Below are positions 1 through 51,480 of a stretch of 57,774 bases of DNA, piece by piece. Every line of letters starts with the position of its first letter. The stretch's first letter is position 1. Made by a program: the position numbers and the translations under genes. The notes beneath the pieces were generated by a model. The model was not told the origin of the DNA. It saw nothing but the letters and a program-made list of their open reading frames with translations, and ran no database searches. The stretch is from Lachnospiraceae bacterium. GTDB taxonomy: Bacteria > Bacillota > Clostridia > Lachnospirales > Lachnospiraceae. Where the stretch lies: assembly GCA_017449075.1 (NCBI GenBank), contig JAFSKG010000015.1:1-57774 (forward strand), written 5' to 3'.

Positions 1-1707
1 AGATGAGTAATTATACATTACCACCTTGCTGTTCTTAGCAATCATATCTGCTGTTTCTTCAGGGGTATATTTATTATATTTACAATACTCTTTAAGGAAA
101 TTGGTTATATCTACTTCTTCTGGCGTGTGGGCTTCTACATTGTCATTTATACCATCTTGATCAGTATCACAATCTTCACCATAACTATCATTAAGTTGTA
201 CTACCTGTGTGTCTGCAAGAAGTATTATGTTACTACTGTCATAGCCATATGTATGCTCCACTACATCCATATCGCAGGCATAGATGTCTGTTATATCTGT
301 AAATTGACTATTCTCACACATCTTCTTAGCCATCATATAAGATTTTGCCACATAGTTGAGATTACCACTATTATGATAAAAACTGCTATTCCCAAAGTAT
401 GCAAGTATCGTATTCCTAAATTTGCTCAATGCTTTATCAAAACTTATTTTGCTCTCAAATATGTCAGGGGTTAAGACACAGCCATAGTCAAGTAATATGT
501 CATTTGCTGTATCTTGACCATATAGTTGAAATGCTTTTTGATAGGCTTTCATGTAGATATCATACTCTTTTGCACTTAATATACTATATCCACCATTAAC
601 TAACTCCGCCTCTTTTAACCAACTTGCTAGTTTTAAATCATTATTCTTATATTTTACTTCTATCATGCAAGTATAAATCTTATCTGCTATAGTCATATGC
701 TCTAACTCTGTATCACTTAAATCTACAAGTGCTGCAAGCACATCACCAGTGCCTATGACTGGTATTGCATTACCACTCTCTACCCTTGCTGGATTTATCG
801 GTCTTCCTCCAAATCTCTCATACATCATTGATAGTATTGCTCCATAGTCACTATCACTTAATTCACTTGTGTCAAGCCCTATTGTATTCCTTATCTTATC
901 TACTCCTGGCTTTAGATATACATAGCACATGAATATATCTTGCAAATGTTCAAAAATGTTTTCAGTATTAGAAAGGGCTGTTCCTTCATATTCCCACTCT
1001 TTAGTGCACTTATCCCACACATCTTTTAATCCTGCATCTTTACTTGAATCTATATACGACACATTTGCATATTCTTCTAATAATTCCATTGGACATATTT
1101 TATTACTTGTAAGTCCTCTTGTGCTTAAATCTATCTCATTTTTACACCCAACTCGTGTCTCCCCAGAATTATTCTTATAAAAATCATATGCAAACTTTAC
1201 AAATGCTGTTAGGTTTTTACCCTGTCTTAAATTATACTTACCATAGCCTATCGCACTCTTATATGTATTGCCATAATCCATTCTTTCAACTCTTGCTTCA
1301 AATGTAGCTCTGTCATACTGCGTGGCATTTAATGTTTCATCATCCTCATAACTATAATCTATTGCATCATAGTCTATCTCGCCATAAACCTCATATACAC
1401 TATTCCCTGGGACAGCTAATATTGCTAAATCACGACTATTTTCTTCATTATAAAAAGGATTGTTCGCATCACCACCTGTATATTCACCATCTATTATAAA
1501 ATGACCAAACTTCCTAAACATCTGCCCTTTGGCATTTACTTCTATATTTAAATTTCCGAGTCTCCCCTCTTCTACAAATCGGTCATATTGAGCCGCTGTT
1601 AATGCATAAGTATCTTTACTACTAATACATATTAATATAACACAAATTGATATAAATAGCATCTTTTTCAACATATATTTTGTTAAGTTTTCAATTCGTC
1701 TTTTCAT
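1..1707 (-). CDS. Exported protein with C-terminal Ca-binding (TSP3-like) motif, partial; distal gene of T4SS-like operon
   Basis: Open from ATG at 1707 to the window edge (569 codons, no stop), so the C-terminus is missing. The N-terminus is charged then hydrophobic (KKMLFISICVILICISS followed by a TYA cleavage-like site, residues about 14-35), indicating export. The body has no family I recognise. Near residue 540 there is DTDQDGINDNVE, the Asp-rich calcium loop of thrombospondin type 3 repeats, also present in the gene at 3091-4797. It starts 4 nt after the stop of the Cys-rich gene, so it belongs to the same operon. A secreted surface partner of the secretion apparatus is an inference. 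The gene was found by reading the minus strand directly. Confidence 0.75.
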   Translation of the reverse strand, partial: MKRRIENLTKYMLKKMLFISICVILICISSKDTYALTAAQYDRFVEEGRLGNLNIEVNAKGQMFRKFGHFIIDGEYTGGDANNPFYNEENSRDLAILAVPGNSVYEVYGEIDYDAIDYSYEDDETLNATQYDRATFEARVERMDYGNTYKSAIGYGKYNLRQGKNLTAFVKFAYDFYKNNSGETRVGCKNEIDLSTRGLTSNKICPMELLEEYANVSYIDSSKDAGLKDVWDKCTKEWEYEGTALSNTENIFEHLQDIFMCYVYLKPGVDKIRNTIGLDTSELSDSDYGAILSMMYERFGGRPINPARVESGNAIPVIGTGDVLAALVDLSDTELEHMTIADKIYTCMIEVKYKNNDLKLASWLKEAELVNGGYSILSAKEYDIYMKAYQKAFQLYGQDTANDILLDYGCVLTPDIFESKISFDKALSKFRNTILAYFGNSSFYHNSGNLNYVAKSYMMAKKMCENSQFTDITDIYACDMDVVEHTYGYDSSNIILLADTQVVQLNDSYGEDCDTDQDGINDNVEAHTPEEVDITNFLKEYCKYNKYTPEETADMIAKNSKVVMYNYSS

Positions 1708-1711
1708 ATTC

Positions 1712-3091
1712 TTACCTAAATACCTTAAATGCTTCATCTAATAATTCATCTCTATATAGAACTTTTATTGTTACATTTATACTTGTATGTCCAAGACAGA
1801 GAACTATTTTGTGACCTGGACATTTATAGTGAGTAATATGTCCCATACATAATTTATAACCATCGCACCAATATTTACTCACTATCTCATCTTTCTCACA
1901 AACATCACTTATATGGGTCTGCAGTTCTTCCTCTATTTCACTAACTCTCTCACTAGCCTTTGTCACCCTTTCAGCATTGCTCTTACAAGTGCCACATTCA
2001 CCTTCTCCATCATAGTCACAAGTCTCAGAATGCATTTGCTCTGCCTCTTCTGCACTTTTCAGTTGAGTTTTCGCAGTCTTTAATTGTGTAGCTAAACTCA
2101 ATCTTGTACTACAATATTTGATATTCTTATAGTAATAACATTTAGTATCAGTTTTTGCTATCTTATGTCCTGATGATGGCTCTGATACTAAATAGATTGA
2201 ATCTATACTTTCAGGCACAACTTCATCTCCTACTTCACCATATATTATAGTTGTACTATCATCAACAACAAATGTTTTATTACAAGATTCAGAGGTTTCA
2301 TTACCACCACCATGGTAGCAAACTTTGCTTTCGTCCCATATACACCCTGCACCACTTTTGCCATGAACAGCACACTCACCTTCTGGGTACACTAATCTAA
2401 AATCTTCATCAGGGTCATATCCTTCATACTCTCTATGCTTTCTTACTGTAAATGGATCATATTTTAAATACCGTGTGCTTCTATAATCTGTATATACATC
2501 TGTACATTTATATGTATCTGCCACACACTCATGCTTACACGGATATAATTCAGTAGAGTCAAATGTATATGTATGTGATAACCAAAATAAATCTGTAAAT
2601 ACTTCTTTCATTTCATTTATATCTGCCAAATCCATTTTCTGGTCATATAACACCGCCATCACCGATATAATATCATTAAAATTAGATGCACCATCTTTTA
2701 TACTTGCATCTATCTTTTCATATTTAATGTTTGCTCCATTTACATAATCAGCATTCTTAAATGGATTAGCATTGTCTTTTCCATATACCCCATAATGATT
2801 AAGTGGCTGATTTGCTTTATTATTTCTATTAGCTTTACCTGTAATCAACTCATCAATCTCTCTCTCAAATCTATCGTTAAGTTGACTATAAAGTTGTCCT
2901 AGTTCTTGCAAATCATCATTTTTTATTATCGGTATATCGCTTGAACCAGCTTCTAAAATCGCTATATTTTCATCAAGTCCAGATTGAATTATGGTTATAG
3001 TTGCAATTGCTCCTATTACTACTGCCGATGCTAATGCAACAATTAATCCTTTACTATGTTCTATTATAAAACTATTTATAAACTTTCCCAT
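1712..3091 (-). CDS. Membrane-anchored Cys-rich protein with repeated CxGH motifs (T4SS-like operon)
   Basis: 459 residues. One N-terminal membrane anchor (about residues 13-36: GLIVALASAVVIGAIATITI) and a long outer portion. Cysteines are abundant from residue 185 on, including CKHECVADTYKC, and the C-terminus has three closely spaced CxGH motifs (CMGH, CPGH, CLGH, about residues 418-440). A helical, Lys/Glu-rich stretch near residues 335-400 could be a coiled coil. The pattern suggests metal binding or disulfides on the outer face; that is inference. Its ATG overlaps the stop of the upstream gene (TAATG), implying translational coupling. I do not recognise a named family. Confidence 0.8.
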   Translation of the reverse strand: MGKFINSFIIEHSKGLIVALASAVVIGAIATITIIQSGLDENIAILEAGSSDIPIIKNDDLQELGQLYSQLNDRFEREIDELITGKANRNNKANQPLNHYGVYGKDNANPFKNADYVNGANIKYEKIDASIKDGASNFNDIISVMAVLYDQKMDLADINEMKEVFTDLFWLSHTYTFDSTELYPCKHECVADTYKCTDVYTDYRSTRYLKYDPFTVRKHREYEGYDPDEDFRLVYPEGECAVHGKSGAGCIWDESKVCYHGGGNETSESCNKTFVVDDSTTIIYGEVGDEVVPESIDSIYLVSEPSSGHKIAKTDTKCYYYKNIKYCSTRLSLATQLKTAKTQLKSAEEAEQMHSETCDYDGEGECGTCKSNAERVTKASERVSEIEEELQTHISDVCEKDEIVSKYWCDGYKLCMGHITHYKCPGHKIVLCLGHTSINVTIKVLYRDELLDEAFKVFR

Positions 3092-4797
3092 TACTTATAG
3101 TTATCCTTCTTATAGGCTAATATATTATCTACATATCTATCTATATCAAGAACAAATACATAACCACTATTTATATTTGCTGTTATATTGTTTTCAGTTA
3201 GTGTTGTATCAAGCATCTTTACTTTGCCATTCTCATAAGTACATACTTTTAATGCCTCTTTCTTTAATGAATAATTACTTATGTCAAATGTTACATTTAG
3301 ATTTGATGTCTCATAGTCATTATCTATGAATGCTACTTTACCAAGTATTGAGTTCACATTATCTAGTGTTGCATTACTTCTCTCTTTTACTTCTATATGA
3401 TTCTCTATAAGTCCATAAACATCTCCACTAATTTTCATTTGTATAATATTCTCTTTGTAAAGTGATTGGTCAAAGTTATCTCTTGGTAGCTCTTGGCTCA
3501 TTGTATTAGTTTCATTTATACTACTTATATCACTTATACCAAGTTTCTTTGCAACCATAACTTCTTCATAATCTGACACACCATCATTATCTGTGTCGGC
3601 TTTTAGTGGGTCTGTGTGATATGCTTTTATTTCTTCATAATCTGATAAACCATCACTATCTGTATCAGTGCTATCCATATAAGTTCTTAAATCTCTCTCT
3701 TCTATGTTTGTAAGCCCATCTTTATCATAGTCTTCATCGCCATCGTCTTTGCCGTTATTGTCTGTGTCAGCTTTTAGTGGGTCTGTGTCTATAATATATA
3801 TCTCATCATAGTCGCTTATACCATCGTTGTCGGTATCAATACTATTTAAGTCGGTTATGAAATAAATCTCATAATTATCTACAAGTCCATCTCCATCGCT
3901 ATCTTGATTCTCTGGGTAGTTTGGTATCTCTCCTACATACTTATAACTAACTCTATATCTAAATGTAAAGGCTATACCTCCATGCCACACCTCACATGTA
4001 TAAGTATGGCTATATGTTGTATTACTTATAAATGTCTGCTGATTATATGCATAGGTATTAGTTTTACTAAATATGGTGCACAGGCTTATGATTATGGATA
4101 GGCCTATCATTAAGAGTATGTTATAAAAATCTTCATGGGTTCTTATATACCTTCTTATAAAGTAGATTGCTATTAAAACAATGAATACTACTATAAACAC
4201 CATCGCAAGTATCATTATAGTTCTTTTAGTTTCTTGCTGTTCTTTCTTCTTAATCTCTTCAAATTCTCTTTTTGTCTTTTCAATTTCTCTTATGTAGCGT
4301 TCACTTATATATGAGCTCGTTGCATGCTCACTATCTCTTGCAAATGCTATATCTTTCTTATACTTGACATTCTTTTTCTTTGGGTCATACTTCGTTGTTG
4401 GTTTATCAAAACTATAGTCAAATGATATATCTTCATTACTTCCTGCAGGTATTGTATACCTCTGATTTTTATTATAAGTTTTAAACTCTTCATGGCCTAT
4501 TGCTTCTATGTTAAACTCTAAATCAGAATATCTATTTAAATTCTCAACTTTTACATCAACCGCTACATATTCATCTTGGAAGTCACCATATTTATCAGAT
4601 TTGACTATCGTTACTTTTACACCTTCATTTGTATTCTCTGATTCTACAAATTTTGAGTAAAACTCATGTGCTTCTTCAATGGTGGTTTCGTTCTCTTGAT
4701 TATTACTAGCGGCTAAAGTTATGGTGCAACTAAATATTACAATGATAAACACGATAAAAAATATTATTTTTACTTTTTCTATAAATTTTAATTTCAT
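3091..4797 (-). CDS. Membrane protein with thrombospondin type 3-like calcium repeats (T4SS-like operon)
   Basis: The ATG at 4797 is chosen over an upstream in-frame start because AGGAAAAG precedes it and the extension is encoded by a REP repeat. It gives about 568 residues: signal or anchor segment near residues 10-30, an outer domain, a Lys/Glu-rich helix near 180-200, two membrane segments at roughly 200-220 and 225-248, then an Asp-rich region (about 295-415). That region holds repeated DTDNDGISDYDE, DTDSDGLSDYEE and DTDPLKADTDN motifs, typical TSP3/calcium-binding repeats. It lies directly after the VirB4-like gene. Calcium-stabilised surface adhesion or bridging to another cell is plausible for a secretion machine but unproven. 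Confidence 0.82.
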   Translation of the reverse strand: MKLKFIEKVKIIFFIVFIIVIFSCTITLAASNNQENETTIEEAHEFYSKFVESENTNEGVKVTIVKSDKYGDFQDEYVAVDVKVENLNRYSDLEFNIEAIGHEEFKTYNKNQRYTIPAGSNEDISFDYSFDKPTTKYDPKKKNVKYKKDIAFARDSEHATSSYISERYIREIEKTKREFEEIKKKEQQETKRTIMILAMVFIVVFIVLIAIYFIRRYIRTHEDFYNILLMIGLSIIISLCTIFSKTNTYAYNQQTFISNTTYSHTYTCEVWHGGIAFTFRYRVSYKYVGEIPNYPENQDSDGDGLVDNYEIYFITDLNSIDTDNDGISDYDEIYIIDTDPLKADTDNNGKDDGDEDYDKDGLTNIEERDLRTYMDSTDTDSDGLSDYEEIKAYHTDPLKADTDNDGVSDYEEVMVAKKLGISDISSINETNTMSQELPRDNFDQSLYKENIIQMKISGDVYGLIENHIEVKERSNATLDNVNSILGKVAFIDNDYETSNLNVTFDISNYSLKKEALKVCTYENGKVKMLDTTLTENNITANINSGYVFVLDIDRYVDNILAYKKDNYK

Positions 4798-4859: not shown

Positions 4860-7304
4860 CTACTCCGCATCATAACTTGTATTGATAATTCTATATATGT
4901 AGTTACTCTTCTTAAACTCATTTTCAAATGGAACTACTGTCTGCTTCTTTATAGTTTTACTGGCGCCAAATACATAGATTCCTTCGCCTCTCTTCCTATC
5001 AGAGATATATTTTATCTCTTCATCAGTTAGTTTCCATATGTCCTTTACCAACTCTCTATCTCGTTCAAGCAGTGATAATAGTATAGAAAAGCTTGTATTA
5101 TTTATTACATTCCTCCCATCATCAGTAGATAGGACATCTTCAGGGTTTTGGGTTATACCAATAGGACAGCCAAGATGTTTCCTAAGCATCTTCCAATATC
5201 TTGCCATCCAAGAGGCTGTTGATTTGTCCTTAAACATTAGATGAAACTCATCTATTATTACATCAGTTGGCACTCTTCGCTCTTTAGTTTTACATATGCG
5301 AAGCCAGATTAAGTCGCATATTACTTCCATTGCAAGTGGTTTTAAATCATTGCCTAAATCCTTTAGGTTAAAACATATAAGAGGATTATTGATTTTAATT
5401 TGAGATTTACCTCTAAATATTTTACAATTACTAGTCTCAGAATAATACATTATTGCCTTAAGCAGTTCTATATCTTCATTATTTACAAAACTGCCATTGA
5501 CAAAGTTAGTATCAAGTAGATAGTTGATATTGGGCTCGCTGAGCTCTCCAGTACTATATTGTTTCTTTGAAAATATTATCTTTTTTAATTCATTAGCGAA
5601 ATCTTCAAGAGTTGGAACATTGTCTTCTACTTTATTTTCATCCCATTTCTTATATATGTTATTGACTGCTATTGATATGGTGGTTCTCTGCCCTGCTGTT
5701 AATTCTTTTCTAAGCATTAAAGCACATACTGATAATATAAACTCTTCTTTTTCTGCAAGTGGATTATCTCCATATGATTCATCTATGTCAAATAAATTGA
5801 TATTGATGTTTCCTGCTGCCTTCACATCTATTATCTTACCCCCAAGCTCAGTTACTACATCTCGCCACTCATTTTGTGGATCAAGTATTACTCCTTCTCT
5901 AAGTTCATTTCTAAGTCGTCTTGTTATAAGTTGAAGTTTCCCTATAAATGACTTACCTTTACCACTCATTCCAAGTATTAATTGTGAATAATTGTCTCCA
6001 TGCATTATGTTATACTTTATAATATTATTTGTAAGTTTGTTTTTGCCATAGTAATCTCCATCAGTTTCTATGACATCCATTGCATTAAATATATTAAATG
6101 CTCTTAATGATTCAGTATCAAATATCAAACTATATGGCGTCTGGTTTACACCATATGGCATTATACTATTATATATGTGTTCCTGCATCTCAGTCCCTGT
6201 TATAAATGTAAGGCCATATGACTTTGCCTTTTTTATAAACTTATATGAGTTATTTGATAGTTCATTAAGCGAGTCTGAACGAATGGCACAGTATATTGAT
6301 ACATTAAATAGGTTTTCATCTCTTTTCATAAGAGAATCGCTTATATACAACGCTTCTTCCCTTCTTTGTTTATAACTTCTTGGGACTAAGTCACTACTTA
6401 TACTTCTCTTTGAAAACTTGGTCTGAACATTATAAATATCACCTTCAACATTACCAAGTTCTCTTTTCGCCATCTTTATAGCTATATCTCTATCTATTTG
6501 ACGAATTTTTATACATATTGTCGTATCTGTTGTTTCATTAAGCAGACTTCTTGTGTCATTTATTATTTGATTAAGGCATGTAGCTTGTAAAGTCTTATTA
6601 GTTCTTCTTAAATATAGGCACCTTTCGTATGTTTCATTAAACTTTATGTGTTTGATTTTGATTTCCATGCTACTTGGTCTTATGACTTCCTTAATACTCA
6701 AATTAAGTGATTTTAGATTATCTGTAGCAAATAACCCTTTATTCCTTTTATAAACTTCTCTCTTATCTGGGTTATAATATAAATATAAAATCTTTATAAG
6801 ATTATCAACTTTTTCTTCTTTAAGATAACATCCACCGATCTCATAAAAATCACCTTTTATTATGTCATCTATAACTTCAAATCTTTTTATGGCACTATCA
6901 TCGCTCTTATCTTCTATGTCAAGTGCTATGTACTTTTTAATTATGTTGCACTTGCCATTTTTATATATGTTTTCTTTTATTGTTTCATTTATGGCACTTC
7001 GCAAGTTTAATAAGTTGTCATCTTTCTCTTCTACATAAAACTCATCTATGTTTTCTCTACGAGATAATATTATAGATATGCCTATGTCTTTATCGAGATT
7101 ATTAAATAAGTTCATGTAATTTAATAGTATTGATTCTTTACCTTCGCTATCAGATAACCTATAATTTATGTCTTCAATCTTGTATAATTTTACATACTTA
7201 TTATTAACACTTTTTATGATGTTTTCGCCAATTATCTTATCAAAATAAATACTATCTTCTATAGTATCAATACTCTCTTTTCTTATTTCATCCAAAAATG
7301 ACAT
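4860..7304 (-). CDS. VirB4/TraC-family type IV secretion ATPase
   Basis: 814 residues, normal for VirB4/TraE-type ATPases that power type IV secretion and conjugation at the inner face of the membrane. Walker A is GMSGKGKS near residue 448. Walker B is DVIIDEFHLMF near residue 685, followed by the typical RKHLGCPIGITQNPED segment. The N-terminal 430 residues form the usual VirB4 N-domain. The ATG overlaps the stop of the PrgI-like gene (TAATG). A short REP remnant (STGELSEP, about residue 588) lies between the Walker motifs, in a region that seems to tolerate insertion. This is the most secure assignment in the operon. Confidence 0.93.
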   Translation of the reverse strand: MSFLDEIRKESIDTIEDSIYFDKIIGENIIKSVNNKYVKLYKIEDINYRLSDSEGKESILLNYMNLFNNLDKDIGISIILSRRENIDEFYVEEKDDNLLNLRSAINETIKENIYKNGKCNIIKKYIALDIEDKSDDSAIKRFEVIDDIIKGDFYEIGGCYLKEEKVDNLIKILYLYYNPDKREVYKRNKGLFATDNLKSLNLSIKEVIRPSSMEIKIKHIKFNETYERCLYLRRTNKTLQATCLNQIINDTRSLLNETTDTTICIKIRQIDRDIAIKMAKRELGNVEGDIYNVQTKFSKRSISSDLVPRSYKQRREEALYISDSLMKRDENLFNVSIYCAIRSDSLNELSNNSYKFIKKAKSYGLTFITGTEMQEHIYNSIMPYGVNQTPYSLIFDTESLRAFNIFNAMDVIETDGDYYGKNKLTNNIIKYNIMHGDNYSQLILGMSGKGKSFIGKLQLITRRLRNELREGVILDPQNEWRDVVTELGGKIIDVKAAGNININLFDIDESYGDNPLAEKEEFILSVCALMLRKELTAGQRTTISIAVNNIYKKWDENKVEDNVPTLEDFANELKKIIFSKKQYSTGELSEPNINYLLDTNFVNGSFVNNEDIELLKAIMYYSETSNCKIFRGKSQIKINNPLICFNLKDLGNDLKPLAMEVICDLIWLRICKTKERRVPTDVIIDEFHLMFKDKSTASWMARYWKMLRKHLGCPIGITQNPEDVLSTDDGRNVINNTSFSILLSLLERDRELVKDIWKLTDEEIKYISDRKRGEGIYVFGASKTIKKQTVVPFENEFKKSNYIYRIINTSYDAE
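5532..5546. repeat. REP remnant inside virB4-like gene
   Basis: GGGCTCGCTGAGCTC only; encodes STGELSEP between Walker A and B. Confidence 0.45.
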
Positions 7305-45705: not shown

Positions 45706-45771
45706 GGGCTCCGCAAGTGCGAAACAGTCCTGTGAACTGTTTCGCCCCTACTACTTTAGTATCCGCCCCTA
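45706..45771. repeat. REP cluster (2-3 units) between mnmA and amidase
   Basis: GCGAAACAGT/ACTGTTTCGC type plus a partial unit holding the mnmA TAG stop; 10 nt from the amidase ATG. Confidence 0.83.
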
Positions 45772-46956
45772 AATTATTATGCCACCGAACATCACTCTGC
45801 CATCTTCATCATAGAATACTGCCGACTGGCCAGGTGTGATGGCGCGGACTGGAGACGAGAGGTGGCAAGTAAGTATATTGGGCTCGCGTAGCTCGCCCAT
45901 ACGACGCGGGCGGATGGTATCCGCCCCTACGAGGGCTCCGCAAGCGTTCGCCCCTACAATTTCGCAGAGGGTGCCATCATGACGATACCTAAGTTTTGCA
46001 TAAAACTTTTTACCTATGACATTTTCATCATGACCGCTGTAAACTACATCTCGTATAGTAAAATCTGACGACATGAGGTCGTCATTGCCACCAAGTATAA
46101 CTTGGTTCTTTTCCGCATCTATTCTTACAACGAATTTTCTCTCGCCAAAAGCTATATTTAAACCTTTTCTTTGACCTATAGTGTAGTTGATGATGCCATT
46201 GTGGAATCCCAACACATTACCTTCTAAATCTACAAATTCACCTTTTTTAAAATACGGTCTACTTAGTATCTCTTCTTCTTTCAGAAGACCTCGAGCGATT
46301 TTCTCTTTGTAATCGTCGCCGAATTCGTAGCGTTTGATAAATTCTTTGTAATCAGTGTCATTTATAAAGCAGACATCTTGCGAGTCCTTTTTATTTGCGA
46401 CTTTAAGATTGAGCTCTGTCGCAATCTTTCTTACATCAGTTTTATCCATGTTACTGAGCGGGAATATTATATGAGATAATTGCTCTTGATTAAGTCGGTA
46501 GAGCATGTAGGATTGGTCTTTTTGTTGATTAGTACTTTTTTTAATACAGTAGCGGTGCGGGCTCGCAAGCTTCGCCCCTATGGTTGTATCCGCCCCTACG
46601 ATGTCGATATTGGCATAATGGCCGGTGGCAACCATGTTGCAGTTTTCTTCTTTCATAACTTCAAGTAGTTTTTCAAACTTCATAGTCGCATTGCAAATTG
46701 CACATGGATTTGGAGTTATGCCGCGTTCATAATCTTCTACAAATGATTTTATAATTTTGTCACGAAATTCAGAGCGAAAGTCGCAATATATAATTTTGAT
46801 GCCGAGGGTGTGGGCGATGTCTTCTAACTCGGGCTCGCAAGCTTCGCCCCCTACGAAATTAAAATGTACGCCAACAACTTCGTAACCTTGTTTTTTTAGT
46901 ATGTGAGCGGTGACAGTTGAGTCAACACCGCCTGACATCGCTACAAGTATTTTCAT
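45769..46956 (-). CDS. mnmA: tRNA-specific 2-thiouridylase MnmA with three in-frame REP clusters
   Basis: 395 residues against about 355-365 usual. PP-loop MSGGVDSTV at residues 7-15, catalytic cysteines in NPCAICNATMKF and SQDVCFI, MATGHYA and IGQRKGLNI present. MnmA makes s2U34 in Glu, Gln and Lys tRNAs. The extra length is REP-encoded: about residues 34-42 (VGGEACEPE), 119-133 (VGADTTIGAKLASP) and 333-359 (VGANACGALVGADTIRPRRMGELREP). All active-site segments are intact, so the tRNA modification enzyme probably tolerates the insertions. The stop TAG overlaps a REP foot. Confidence 0.95.
   Translation of the reverse strand: MKILVAMSGGVDSTVTAHILKKQGYEVVGVHFNFVGGEACEPELEDIAHTLGIKIIYCDFRSEFRDKIIKSFVEDYERGITPNPCAICNATMKFEKLLEVMKEENCNMVATGHYANIDIVGADTTIGAKLASPHRYCIKKSTNQQKDQSYMLYRLNQEQLSHIIFPLSNMDKTDVRKIATELNLKVANKKDSQDVCFINDTDYKEFIKRYEFGDDYKEKIARGLLKEEEILSRPYFKKGEFVDLEGNVLGFHNGIINYTIGQRKGLNIAFGERKFVVRIDAEKNQVILGGNDDLMSSDFTIRDVVYSGHDENVIGKKFYAKLRYRHDGTLCEIVGANACGALVGADTIRPRRMGELREPNILTCHLSSPVRAITPGQSAVFYDEDGRVMFGGIII
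45880..45957. repeat. REP cluster (3 units) inside mnmA, 3' region
   Basis: In frame; three arm types in a row (GGGCTCGCG, GGGCGGATGG, GGGCTCCGC). Confidence 0.85.
46558..46600. repeat. REP cluster (2 units) inside mnmA, middle
   Basis: GGGCTCGCAAGCTTCGCCCC plus a half unit, in frame. Confidence 0.82.
46831..46855. repeat. REP unit inside mnmA, 5' region
   Basis: Same type as 46558 but with an extra C before TACG, which keeps the reading frame. Confidence 0.82.
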
Positions 46957-47876
46957 TATTGTGGACCTGCAGTTGATCCTGCTTTCAAAGGTTGTCTTTG
47001 CTCATACTCTTGTTGGAAACTTGTGATTCCACCATACCCAGCTCCACTACCTGGTGACACTCCAATATTTACACCATAAACTGATTCTGTACCTTGTATG
47101 CCAAGTAATCCAGTTGATGAATAATTTGTGTTACCACCCAAATTACCTATAAATGAATCTTGATTCTTACTTATACATCTTCCTTGTGAATCAAATGTAT
47201 AATATGATCCACCTATTTGCAGAGTTGTATTTACAGCTAGGCTTCCATCAACTTCTGATAAATAATATTCATTTCCACTTTGGTCTTGAATCCATCCCTT
47301 TGTAAGAGATCCATTGCTTACATTGAAATAAAACATCTTTCCATTTGAATTCACCCAGCCTGTATCCATCGCACCATTTACTCCAAAGTGATACCAAATT
47401 CCATTTACTGCTGCAAATGTATCAACGAGGCATTTGCCATCATAGAAATAAAACCATGCATTTCCGATTTTATTCCATCCAGTAAACATAACTCCATCAT
47501 CTCCAAAATAATAATAATCTAATACTCCATCTGTATAAGTTTGTACCCATCCAGTTACCATCTGGCCATCACTTGGATTCAAATAATATTTCTTTCCGTT
47601 TGATTCAATAAATCCAATTTGCATCAAGCCATTCTCATCAAAAAAATAATATTTTCCATTTATAAGATACCAGCCTGTAACAGCATATCCATATGCATCA
47701 AAATAGTAGAAGCCATTACCTGTCTGCAGCCAATTGTTTACGACATATTGGCCTGCTGCAGAATTAAAATATTTATATTTATTATTATCTTTATACCAAT
47801 CTGCAAAGACAGCACTACTGAGTGTAATGACTGAAAATAAAATTGCAGTTGTAAGAACTAATAATTTTTTTCTCAT
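46956..47876 (-). CDS. Secreted choline-binding-type repeat protein, ~306 aa
   Basis: ATG 47876 (MRKKLLVLTTAIL) with AAAGGA upstream is the real start; the MLAEP extension is REP sequence. A signal peptide is followed by about ten repeats (KYKYFNSAAGQYVVNNW, GFYYFDAYGYAVTGWYLING, YYFDENGLMQIGFIES, YYFGDDGVMFTGW...). A Gly/Ser-rich C-terminus carries GNLGGNTNYSSTG. It is nearly all binding repeats with no catalytic domain. It overlaps mnmA's start by 1 nt, an odd partner. It sits directly downstream of the LicC-LicA gene. Confidence 0.88.
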   Translation of the reverse strand: MRKKLLVLTTAILFSVITLSSAVFADWYKDNNKYKYFNSAAGQYVVNNWLQTGNGFYYFDAYGYAVTGWYLINGKYYFFDENGLMQIGFIESNGKKYYLNPSDGQMVTGWVQTYTDGVLDYYYFGDDGVMFTGWNKIGNAWFYFYDGKCLVDTFAAVNGIWYHFGVNGAMDTGWVNSNGKMFYFNVSNGSLTKGWIQDQSGNEYYLSEVDGSLAVNTTLQIGGSYYTFDSQGRCISKNQDSFIGNLGGNTNYSSTGLLGIQGTESVYGVNIGVSPGSGAGYGGITSFQQEYEQRQPLKAGSTAGPQ

Positions 47877-47888
47877 AATTTTCCTTTC

Positions 47889-47914
47889 GGGCTCTGCAAG
47901 CATTCGCCCCTACG
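47889..47914. repeat. REP unit upstream of ~306-aa surface protein gene
   Basis: GGGCTCTGCAAGCATTCGCC type; 13 nt from the ATG, adjoining the AAAGGA site. Confidence 0.83.
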
Positions 47915-47945: not shown

Positions 47946-49739
47946 TTATTTATGTGAAATTTTTGTGATTAGATTTTTGAATGCCCTATAACCATTCATT
48001 CCAAATGTTCCATAATCAGCCTCACCGAGAGCTCCTCTAACTATGGCCCAGACTGCATTGTAGAAACCGCTAAGTATCATATAGTATGCGATTAATATTT
48101 TTGCATCCTTGTCACTTTTTGGCAAGAAACTGCTCTTTCCTTTTGCCTTTTTATACATCTTGTAAAGTTCAAATGTCTTCTCTTCATCAAAGCCCACATA
48201 TACGCCAAAAAGTGCAATGTCAGAAATTGGATCCGCCATGCCACCATACTCAAAATCAATTAATTTCATGCTGTCTTTTGTAACAAGGACATTATATGGA
48301 TTTGGGTCACCGTGACATAAGGTCTCAGGTCTTTTCATTTTAGTTAGTCTCTTTTTTATCTCCTGCTCTTCTTTTACTATTTTATCAAAATCTTCGTATG
48401 GCACTATGATATTTTTTTGTTTTATAATATTTAAATACTCGTCAATTTTAGTAGTCATATTGCAAGTTGCTTTTACCTTTATACCAAGAGAGTGAAACTT
48501 TCTATATAGCGCCATGCATTTTTCAAGTTCTTTTTTGTTTTCTATGTTGAGGTTTCTTGCATTTTTAATACTCTTTGATATTTTGTATCCAGTCTTTTTA
48601 TCAAAATAAATCACCTCTTCTGTAATGCCTTTACTTTGAAGTTTGTCTAATATCTCTCCTTCACTTTTCCTACTTATAAACTCATCTGTATTGTCGCCTG
48701 GTACTCTTGCAAAATACTCTGTCCCATCATAGGTAAATCTATATGAGCGATTGGTCATGCCCTCTTTTACGCAGGTAATATTTTTAACTTCACTATCTTT
48801 TATATGAAATGTCTCTGAGACAAATGATACTGCCTTTGAGCCATAGGACTCTATTTCGTGATCAAAGTTCTTTATATCTTGCAAAGTATCAAACTCAAAA
48901 ATAATACCTTTATCAAGTTTATATAAATACATCTTTGGTAACTTTGCAAAATTTTGAACCAGTACATCTTCCCAATAGAAATTGTCTGTGGATGTCTTAT
49001 TATAGTACGTTTCTATCATCGGTATGAATTTATGAGAAAATTCCTTTGTCAAAAAGCATGGTCCGACAAGACAATAATCGTTCTTTCCACCAACTACAAC
49101 TGACTTTATCTCATTCTTGCTATTTACTATGTATCGCCATTCATTTTTACAGTCTTCATAAAATGCACCTATATAATATGGCTCCACCTCGTATCTATGA
49201 TAAATATTTTCTTCTATATATACATCAGAAACGCAGATATACATATTTTTATTTCTTAGAATCTCTCTTGCCACATAGAAAGTTGATAAAGTATTTTTGT
49301 ATTTGTATTCTCTATTATAGACAAGTTTTACTCCGTACTTATCTATGAGATAATCGAATTTTTCTTTTAGGTACCCCACCATTATAGTTATGTCGCTAAT
49401 GCCAGCTTCTATCAACTGTTCTATTTGTCTTTCAATCATTCGCTTGCCTTTTATGGTGATAAATGATTTTGGCGTATCATAAGTAAGTGGGGCAAGCCTA
49501 ATTCCCATGCCGCAAGCAAATATAACAGCGCCATCAACTTTATGTTTTTCAAGAAAGTTTTTTCCGCTCGCAGTAAGCTTATAATTATCATCCTTTTTAA
49601 CTATAAGTTTGTCATCTACTAACTCTTTCATAGTCAAATTTATCTTTCCAAGCGAAACCTTGAACTTGCTCGAAAGTTCTCTCTGGGTTATGTTGCTATT
49701 TTCAAATATTGATCTTGTTATTAAAAATTTTAAATTCAT
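47946..49739 (-). CDS. Winged-helix regulator fused to phosphocholine cytidylyltransferase and choline kinase (LicC-LicA)
   Basis: 597 residues in three parts. Residues 1-65: winged helix (ITQRELSSKFKVSLGKINLTMKELVDDKLIVKK). Residues 70-300: LicC-type nucleotidyltransferase (AVIFACGMGIRLAPLTYDTPKSFITIKGKRMIERQIEQL, then VSDVYIEEN), where MG.R replaces the more usual GxGxR. Residues 310-597: LicA-type choline kinase (MTNRSYRFTYDGTEYFARVPG, LCHGDPNPYNVLV near 475, LIDFEYGGMADPISDIA). It would convert choline to phosphocholine and CDP-choline. Divergent from a BCCT transporter, with matched operators in between, suggesting it also represses both promoters. No licD is in the window. Confidence 0.9.
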   Translation of the reverse strand: MNLKFLITRSIFENSNITQRELSSKFKVSLGKINLTMKELVDDKLIVKKDDNYKLTASGKNFLEKHKVDGAVIFACGMGIRLAPLTYDTPKSFITIKGKRMIERQIEQLIEAGISDITIMVGYLKEKFDYLIDKYGVKLVYNREYKYKNTLSTFYVAREILRNKNMYICVSDVYIEENIYHRYEVEPYYIGAFYEDCKNEWRYIVNSKNEIKSVVVGGKNDYCLVGPCFLTKEFSHKFIPMIETYYNKTSTDNFYWEDVLVQNFAKLPKMYLYKLDKGIIFEFDTLQDIKNFDHEIESYGSKAVSFVSETFHIKDSEVKNITCVKEGMTNRSYRFTYDGTEYFARVPGDNTDEFISRKSEGEILDKLQSKGITEEVIYFDKKTGYKISKSIKNARNLNIENKKELEKCMALYRKFHSLGIKVKATCNMTTKIDEYLNIIKQKNIIVPYEDFDKIVKEEQEIKKRLTKMKRPETLCHGDPNPYNVLVTKDSMKLIDFEYGGMADPISDIALFGVYVGFDEEKTFELYKMYKKAKGKSSFLPKSDKDAKILIAYYMILSGFYNAVWAIVRGALGEADYGTFGMNGYRAFKNLITKISHK

Positions 49740-49751
49740 AATTGTTCACAA

Positions 49752-49787
49752 TGTTCATATATCTCAAAATTTTATGTGCTATGAACA
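49752..49787. promoter_or_regulatory. Operator 1 (licCA side), TGTTCA-N24-TGAACA
   Basis: 36 bp. Read on minus: TGTTCA starting inside the -10 box, N24 containing AAAATTTTGA, then TGAACA. An extra TGAACA half site adjoins it (49744-49749 region). Same length and centre as operator 2. Confidence 0.8.
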
Positions 49788-49814
49788 TTATAGCATAAGT
49801 ATATTATATGTCAA
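49787..49814 (-). promoter_or_regulatory. Sigma-70 promoter of the licC-licA fusion gene
   Basis: On minus: TTGACA (49814-49809), 16 nt, TATAAT (49792-49787). The last T of the -10 box begins the operator TGTTCA. Leader about 40 nt, with no clear Shine-Dalgarno. Confidence 0.85.
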
Positions 49815-49845
49815 TAAAGGCAGCATATTTCTTAAAATATAATCA

Positions 49846-49874
49846 TTGACAAAAATATGGAGTTTTGCTATAAT
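49846..49874 (+). promoter_or_regulatory. Sigma-70 promoter of the BCCT transporter gene
   Basis: TTGACA (49846-49851), exactly 17 nt, TATAAT (49869-49874). Fully consensus. As on the other side, the final T of the -10 is the first base of TGTTCA. Confidence 0.88.
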
Positions 49875-49909
49875 GTTCAAAAATAAGAAAATTTTGATTA
49901 TTTTGAACA
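49874..49909. promoter_or_regulatory. Operator 2 (BCCT side), TGTTCA-N24-TGAACA
   Basis: 36 bp, extended as an imperfect palindrome (ATGTTCAAAA(A)TAA / TTATTTTGAACAT). It contains the same central AAAATTTTGA as operator 1. Placed over the -10 and start point, it would block initiation. Confidence 0.82.
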
Positions 49910-49959
49910 TAAGTGATTAACAACATTTTATAAAGTCAAAATGAGTTTTAGGAGGTTCT

Positions 49960-51480
49960 ATGAATTTTAAAGAAGAGTCAAAGAAACTTGACTTACCAAT
50001 CATCATTGTGCCATTTGCTCTCATACTCCTCATATGTCTCTTTCTATTTTTAAGGCCAAATGAGACCAATGAATTTTTCACAATACTCAATCCATTTTTT
50101 AGAGATAAGATGTCACTTGTATATCTCTTTGTGAGCTTTGCATTATTTTTAATTGCAATCTTCTTATCATTCTCTAAATATGGAAATATCGTTCTTGGCA
50201 AGCCAGGCGAAAAGCCAGCATTTTCTTTCTGGGGTTGGGGTGCCATGATGTTTTGCTGTGGTATGGCTGCCGACATACTCTACTATGGATTTACTGAGTG
50301 GCTTAACTATTCGCAGGAAGCCTACATCATATCAAAAGGCAACCCATTTGATTTTTCAAATGTCTATTCATTTTTCTTTTGGGCAAACTTCTGGGAATAT
50401 CTTGTAGTTGGAACTTGCTTCGCATTTATGATGCATGTAAGAAATAGAAGTAAACAAAAATATAGCGAAGCTATAAGACCACTCATCGGAAAATATGCTG
50501 ATGGAGTTATAGGAAAAATTATAGATATATTTGCAACTATGGCAATAATTGCTGCCGTGGCTTGCTCTCTTACTTTCACAGTGCCAGTAATCACTGTTTG
50601 CTTAAATAGTTTATTTGGCATACCTGCCAATCATATAACTACAATCGTTTTACTTATACTTATTTGTGTCATATATAGTATCTCTCTTGCAAATGGTCTA
50701 AGAGGAATCAAGTTTTTATCAAGTATTTGTATTTATGTATTTCTTGTTTTCATTCTCTATGTATTTTTACTTGGCGGCCAGGCTCAATTCATTCTTGAGA
50801 ACACATTTAAACAAATCGGACTTCTATGTCATAATTTATTCCTAATATTTACTGATATTGACCCAACAAGACAGAGTACATTCGTCCAAGACTACTGTGT
50901 TTTTTATAATGCATTCTGGCTCACTTGGGCAATTACTGTTCCATTTTTCATCGGAGTCATAAGTCGTGGTAGAACTATAAGGCAAACTATACTTGGCGGT
51001 CTGGCATTTGCTATGCCAGGCTCAGTGCTCTGCTTCTCAGTTCTCTCAAACTACTCTGAGTCAATACAAATTTTCAACAAGATTGATTTGATAAATATCT
51101 ACAACACAACCGGCAATGCCTACAATGTAATTAGTGAAATCATAAATACATTACCATTCCCAAAAGTTGCACTTCTTATACTTATAATTTCAATGATATG
51201 TTTCAACGCTACAAGTTTTGACTCAATATCTCTTACTTGCTCATACTACTCATATAAGAACCTGTCAAATGATGAAGCACCACATAGTTTTATAAAGCAG
51301 CTTTGGGCAATCTTACTTATCCTCTTCCCTGTGGCACTTATTTTCTCGGAAGGGACTGCAAATAATTTGCAAAATGTCGCGGTAATATTTGGTTTCCCTG
51401 GTGCAATACTTGTCATGCTCGTTGTAATATCATTCTTTAAGGATGTAAATAACTATCAAAAAGAGAAACAATGTGAATAA
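49960..51480 (+). CDS. BCCT-family transporter (choline/betaine type)
   Basis: 506 residues, twelve membrane segments. BCCT hallmarks: FWGWGAMMFCCGMAADILYY (about residue 88) and AFWLTWAITVPFFIGVISRGRTIRQ (TM8 and loop, near residue 320). It imports quaternary ammonium compounds such as choline, carnitine or betaine using ion gradients. The divergent licC-licA gene and shared operators point to choline. Strong Shine-Dalgarno AGGAGG before the ATG. A bidirectional terminator follows. Confidence 0.92.
   Translation: MNFKEESKKLDLPIIIVPFALILLICLFLFLRPNETNEFFTILNPFFRDKMSLVYLFVSFALFLIAIFLSFSKYGNIVLGKPGEKPAFSFWGWGAMMFCCGMAADILYYGFTEWLNYSQEAYIISKGNPFDFSNVYSFFFWANFWEYLVVGTCFAFMMHVRNRSKQKYSEAIRPLIGKYADGVIGKIIDIFATMAIIAAVACSLTFTVPVITVCLNSLFGIPANHITTIVLLILICVIYSISLANGLRGIKFLSSICIYVFLVFILYVFLLGGQAQFILENTFKQIGLLCHNLFLIFTDIDPTRQSTFVQDYCVFYNAFWLTWAITVPFFIGVISRGRTIRQTILGGLAFAMPGSVLCFSVLSNYSESIQIFNKIDLINIYNTTGNAYNVISEIINTLPFPKVALLILIISMICFNATSFDSISLTCSYYSYKNLSNDEAPHSFIKQLWAILLILFPVALIFSEGTANNLQNVAVIFGFPGAILVMLVVISFFKDVNNYQKEKQCE

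Follow-up and report, generated by a model that had tools for sequence, protein, structure and literature searches.

Trifunctional NadR of the Enterobacterales carries, in this order, an HTH domain, a nucleotidyltransferase and a kinase (NMN adenylyltransferase and ribosylnicotinamide kinase), and, in the sections of the source consulted, is described as repressing genes of NAD synthesis and uptake such as pnuC in response to NAD and ATP (PMC12421817). BirA, a group II biotin protein ligase, likewise bears an N-terminal HTH on an enzyme. Its dimer forms with bio-5'-AMP, the intermediate of its own reaction, according to the portion of the report consulted (PMC4016012), and binds a long two-arm site, given in the part of the source consulted as TTGTAAACC-N14/15-GGTTTACAA, so that one base of variation is tolerated between the arms (PMC545781). 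For choline, a cytidylyltransferase and a choline kinase are joined in the LicCA protein of Treponema denticola, which was compared by description only; the text consulted mentions no DNA-binding part (PMC8590670). Import of choline or betaine is regulated by the MarR-type proteins GbsR and OpuAR, which, as presented in the excerpt consulted, are not enzymes and are released by choline (PMC6207618).

The window, i.e., the whole stretch of 57,774 bp that was analysed, contains a minus-strand gene (47946..49739) for a protein of 597 aa in which, by domain and structure matches, a winged-helix (wHTH) domain precedes a LicC-type cytidylyltransferase and a LicA-type choline kinase. Pfam detects HTH_24 (residues 9–46), NTP_transferase (71–178) and Choline_kinase/APH (322–532), and the score of 59.4 bits against PF01633 (cut-off 29) places the protein within the choline kinase family. 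By HTH_24 and alignment, the winged-helix domain takes up approximately residues 1–66 (49542..49739, minus strand). The LicC-type domain (residues 70–294; 48858..49532, minus strand) is homologous over its whole length to the solved LicC structure 1jyk (E 1.6e-40), and the choline-kinase domain, supported by PF01633, matches the bacterial choline kinase structure 4r77 over residues 316–590 (47970..48794, minus strand; E 1.4e-18). None of the NCBIfam matches exceeds its cut-off among the 25 of 28 that were listed. Residues Q19, R20, G31 and N34 of the winged helix are invariant in all 36 rows of an alignment, two of which (L033 and L104, from genome G201) are the same locus, and Pfam recovers HTH_24 in 35 of 36 fusions. 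The N-domains of 21 out of 21 fusions match NCBIfam MarR_EPS (TIGR04176), a MarR family of EPS-associated regulators, but the window domain, at 32.6 bits, stays below the curated cut-off of 88 and cannot be assigned to that family, the members of which are stand-alone regulators.

A DNA-binding domain and enzymes of one pathway are present in a single chain, as is characteristic of enzyme-repressors. The domain order is that of NadR, but the pathway, the enzyme families and the operator differ: the domains are LicC- and choline-kinase-like, rather than NMN adenylyltransferase and ribosylnicotinamide kinase, and a winged helix is paired with a two-arm site of 36 or 37 bp. The fusion resembles BirA in its N-terminal HTH and in a long two-arm site that tolerates one base in length, but the ligase fold, the ligand and the letters of the site are different, and there is no biotin protein ligase domain among its Pfam domains. 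Most likely, it is a new enzyme-repressor that works like NadR and BirA while belonging to neither family. No description of the fusion as a regulator was found in the literature searched, a search whose reach left out most subscription journals.

The fusion gene is divergent from a BCCT transporter gene (49960..51480, plus strand), and the gap between them holds two 36 bp operators of the form TGTTCA-N24-TGAACA, one on the fusion side (O1, 49752..49787) and one on the BCCT side (O2, 49874..49909). An additional TGTTCA half-site lies 3 bp from O1 (49743..49748). Both promoters agree with the consensus at 12 of 12 positions and have an extended TG; that of the fusion gene is TTGACA-16-TATAAT (49787..49814, minus strand) and that of the BCCT gene TTGACA-17-TATAAT (49846..49874, plus strand). 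The last base of each -10 box is also the first base of an operator (49787 on the minus strand for O1, 49874 on the plus strand for O2). A sequence-only reading of this DNA had described the twin operators, their start at the last -10 base and the two flanking genes, a BCCT transporter and a winged-helix/LicC/LicA fusion, all of which proved accurate; the additional half-site was no part of that description. It had also pointed to a central AAAATTTTGA, which is indeed common to O1 and O2, at the same offset if both are read in the direction of their genes, but spacers are not conserved across genera; AAAATTTTGA is not kept at the other sites and was therefore left out of the operator definition. 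The exact pattern occurs in the genome (1.64 Mb, 76% complete) only at O1 and O2, and the pattern read backwards, used as a control, occurs once. With two mismatches allowed, matches within the window are not above chance (three against 4.69 expected), so that the argument depends on the exact sites and their conservation.

Conservation beside orthologs, the check suggested by the sequence-only reading, gave a strongly positive result. The non-redundant, de-duplicated set comprised 64 wHTH fusions, 19 homologs without an aligned wHTH and 51 BCCT rows (some cut by the ends of their loci), and up to 300 bp of upstream sequence was examined (203 bp for one fusion of the window's clade). Exact half-sites spaced by N24 or N25 were found upstream of 29 of the 64 fusions (23 N24, six N25) and 25 of the 51 BCCT genes (22 N24, three N25), and with one mismatch allowed these numbers became 41 and 26, counts in which related genomes are not independent. 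When all 4096 hexamers were tried as arms, the runner-up reached 2/64 fusions and 1/51 BCCT genes. Reordering the letters of the hexamer into its 119 other permutations gave 0/64 and at most 1/51, and, over spacings of 0–60, every other exact spacing gave at most 1/64 and 2/51. Within the genus, 13 of 15 BCCT genes have the site. The homologs without an aligned wHTH had one site among 19, a control that means no more than its name, since three of its members (L162, L164 and L178), read by eye, begin like diverged HTH domains; it also includes L045, which has no upstream sequence. A protein with wHTH and LicC domains only (L019, 361 aa), lacking a site, was kept outside the 64. The single site among the 19 is an exact N25 site that spans the start of a gene for a LicC-only protein without wHTH or kinase (L047 in G208, 1447–2358, minus strand), possibly an extra member of the regulon.

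The site thus precedes genes of the same pathway across genomes. Recent common descent of the DNA alone does not explain this, as spacers vary between genera while the half-sites, their spacing and the phasing to the -10 box are retained, and a chance palindrome is ruled out by the upstream test together with the genome-wide counts given below. Sequence comparison thereby supports the site as an operator that many genera conserve at their fusion and BCCT genes, also where the two genes lie apart.

Exact N24 sites were searched across 50 fusion-bearing genomes, chosen by protein match and not by site (12 of the genus and the 38 better matches among 56 other matching genomes of the family; a few, e.g., G177, matched without a wHTH), and across 50 fusion-lacking genomes drawn from 143 of the family. 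N25 sites, such as that of L154, are missed by these searches. The fusion-bearing set has 68 sites in 40 of its 50 genomes. For 45 of these sites, a fusion or BCCT match begins no more than about 320 bp downstream (a fusion alone for 20, a BCCT gene alone for 21, both for four), against about 0.02 expected if genomes are taken to average 3.0 Mb. The fusion-lacking set has 23 sites, of which two stand at BCCT genes, and by this measure the remaining 23 of the fusion-bearing set look like background. The reversed pattern gave 22 sites in the fusion-bearing and seven in the fusion-lacking genomes. BCCT genes themselves are present in 41/50 fusion-bearing versus 8/50 fusion-lacking genomes (Fisher p 2.8e-11, kinship ignored), and six of the latter eight have no site. 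Outside the genus, 12 of 13 site-bearing BCCT genes are on another contig than the fusion or at least 27 kb from it, and the remaining one, in G016, is approximately 4 kb away. Extra high-scoring BCCT copies in G117, G005 and G191 (L120–L122) lack a site.

Several sites have less obvious partners. Exact sites in L189 (G207, 144–179) and L190 (G205, 115–150) are followed about 250–310 bp on by the next gene, and an ORF of more than 3500 aa that runs off the locus is the next gene in L189 and the second in L190. Large surface-protein-like genes occur about 250–350 bp past the sites in L094 and L095/L189, and as the second gene in L105/L190. These sites may be chance occurrences. A MatE gene near a site of G046 (L088) was set aside because it ends before the site.

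Among 200 genomes sampled in the family, 57 have homologs of the fusion (E up to 1e-20), as do all 12 of the genus, the window's own being counted in both. At E up to 1e-50, homologs are found in 15 of 391 genomes sampled across the class, again including its own and some from outside the family. A scan of contigs for relatives gave one close match, L033, the G201 locus mentioned above. In a maximum-likelihood tree of the 64 fusions, the site is present in all 18 members of one clade (support 89/81), in 18 of 26 members of a second (100/100), in three of 12 in the window's clade (100/100) and in two of seven in an outlying clade (99/99); the remaining row, L169, has none. Members of the second clade often have the BCCT gene after the fusion gene, with a site at the first gene only. 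In all, 23 of 64 fusions have no site in the upstream stretch examined, nine of them among the 12 of the window's clade. In three loci of that clade (L100, L101 and L104), a run of genes starting at sites shared with a BCCT gene has the fusion at its end. In three others (L107, L108 and L109) the fusion comes close behind other genes, and the BCCT genes in those three genomes are site-bearing (L099, L167 with one mismatch, and L106). Since BCCT genes have sites where fusion genes have none, control of the transporter appears to be more general than control of the fusion by itself. The sequence-only reading had proposed an autorepressor, one that might sense choline, phosphocholine, CDP-choline or CTP. 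The idea of an autorepressor agrees with the conserved operator at fusion and BCCT genes and with the fusion being the sole match to a profile of its wHTH in four genomes, but it does not hold as a general rule, given the nine fusions of the window's clade without a site of their own.

The run of genes in L100, L101 and L104 encodes 2-oxoacid:ferredoxin oxidoreductase and CoA-ligase-like proteins (Pfam matches of L100). A run of this kind starts opposite the BCCT gene at the shared sites in L097 and L103 as well, and closes with the fusion in the former three.

Other types of transporter are found with the outlying fusions. Cytosine/purine-type permeases (PF02133; L022, 3507–4679; L028, 3–1400; L154, 3813–5444) lie beside three of them, and an exact N25 site (5496–5532) precedes the permease gene of L154. 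In L026 (G098), an outlying fusion has downstream of it a sodium:solute symporter gene (PF00474), the start of which is covered by an exact site (3514–3549). Tandem exact sites in L188 (G046; 5953–5988 and 6030–6065) precede an ABC operon, the best NCBIfam matches of which are UgpA, UgpE and UgpB, each below its cut-off; going by the ligand of UgpB, this operon could presumably import glycerophosphocholine as a source of choline. These few cases suggest that the transporter is exchanged under a regulator and operator that persist.

The BCCT protein of the window belongs to PF02028 (356.2 bits, cut-off 27) and falls short of the narrower NCBIfam family TIGR00842 (343.2 versus 407.55). Its shared operator and its neighbours point to choline as the substrate, and it is presumed to be a choline importer. 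Next downstream of the fusion is a gene for a choline-binding-repeat protein (46956..47903, minus strand; PF19127, PF01473), and LicD genes turned up in 30 of the 34 fusion-bearing genomes examined for them, including that of the window, a gene content that fits decoration of the cell surface with phosphocholine. A PP-loop gene, resembling that of a tRNA 2-thiouridylase, is repeatedly seen near the fusion in the genus (window, 45769–46956; L109, 5501–6667; L112, 7437–8534; L113, 3333–4409). A small divergent gene of about 170–210 aa, lipoprotein-like as judged from its start, lies beside the operator-bearing BCCT or fusion gene in eight loci (L084, L085, L087, L089, L090, L091, L093 and L117), with no match to Pfam (L093, L117) or NCBIfam (L117, L085).

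How the sites act can be judged in part from their position. In the 50 sites lying away from the assigned start codon, an extended -10 box can be read in the bases before TGTTCA: position -8 is T in 40 sites, -7 is G in 36, -5 is T in 40, -4 is A in 42 and -1 is A in 41, and TGnTAnnn directly adjoins the left arm in 33 of them. In 17 further sites, the element spans the ribosome-binding region and the start codon, and the right arm is partly coding; as it mostly reads ATGAACA, coding may help to keep this arm. Either position would be apt for a repressor that prevents initiation or promoter escape. The 17 start-region sites could also pair in RNA, and an element that is a hairpin in the leader instead of a DNA operator would suit them. 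At the promoter-type sites, the left arm precedes the expected start of transcription and would not be transcribed, so a hairpin is rejected for most sites, and as a general explanation it is scarcely credible. Activation by the bound fusion is also very improbable, because in the window both promoters match the consensus fully, with the sites placed on the -10 box and beyond it. Nothing argues directly for activation, the nearest indication being a second site or half-site over the -35 region in some genus mates (L100, L102).

With a wHTH profile (E up to 0.01), the fusion is the single match in the window's genome and three genus mates (G000, G210, G204 and G200), and several of nine other genomes searched contain further, weaker matches. 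This, and the co-distribution of sites and fusions, makes the fusion by far the best candidate, and it very probably binds the sites. A separate, unlinked factor, with the winged helix directed to another DNA target or to none, would account for G063 and G048, which keep perfect operator-promoters at their BCCT genes (L185, 1637–1672; L186, 3340–3375). These drafts are 89% and 93% complete, and searches with the whole protein (best E 1.5e-7, confined to the nucleotidyltransferase part) and with the wHTH profile (best 1.6e-6) found no fusion in either; it may have been lost, be missing from the draft or be replaced by another regulator. Such a factor would also fit L154, where the HTH has diverged (E 0.0095) and yet an exact site precedes the transporter gene. 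It is nonetheless improbable, as the sites track the fusion across genera, being found at its own gene in 41 of 64 cases, and the four genus genomes have no second close wHTH of the fusion type, unrelated types of regulator being outside that search. It is equally improbable that the substrate is a related amine or a betaine. BCCT substrates do vary, and permeases of the cytosine/purine type adjoin the outlying fusions, but among solved structures both enzyme domains match choline enzymes best, or nearly so, a choline-binding-repeat gene is adjacent and LicD is in the genome. A more serious variant retains the enzyme-repressor and has choline act as inducer, freeing the protein from DNA. Choline is an expected ligand of the kinase domain, and GbsR, in the part of the source consulted, is a choline-released repressor of choline import (PMC6207618). 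NadR and BirA are closer in architecture, however, and there the product or a reaction intermediate is the corepressor, as far as the consulted parts of those reports describe it (PMC12421817, PMC4016012), so that induction by choline is considered unlikely.

The favoured reading, to which a probability of about 0.8 is given, is that of a choline enzyme-repressor, a counterpart of NadR and BirA; it takes the computed domains, sites, spacing and regulon as its base and adds binding, repression and sensing as proposals. An N-terminal winged helix is joined to the two predicted enzymes that turn choline into CDP-choline, and a dimer would hold one DNA-binding head on each TGTTCA half-site, the centres of which are 30 or 31 bp apart, a distance presumably set by the enzyme core. 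As the site in the window overlaps the last part of the -10 box and the bases transcribed first, the bound dimer would block RNA polymerase at the transporter promoter and at its own, and from this position the fusion is probably a repressor. The catalytic domains would most likely set DNA binding, with CDP-choline favouring it and CTP or empty sites disfavouring it, so that uptake and activation would stop once CDP-choline suffices; the choice of CDP-choline as corepressor is a tentative one, at slightly less than even odds. With similar reserve, it may be proposed that self-regulating CDP-choline synthases govern choline scavenging in Lachnospiraceae and other Clostridia, with CDP-choline as corepressor, the dimer as a ruler for the 30–31 bp and a varying transporter (BCCT, sodium:solute symporter, cytosine/purine-type permease or Ugp-like ABC importer).

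In phosphocholine-decorated bacteria, the supply of choline sets the chemistry of the surface and the docking of choline-binding proteins. If the proposal is true, one protein would both spend choline and decide on its import, a very direct form of feedback. The 36/37 bp signature provides a searchable mark of choline-scavenging genes, and the fusion would add a new chemistry to the few enzyme-repressors of the NadR and BirA kind.
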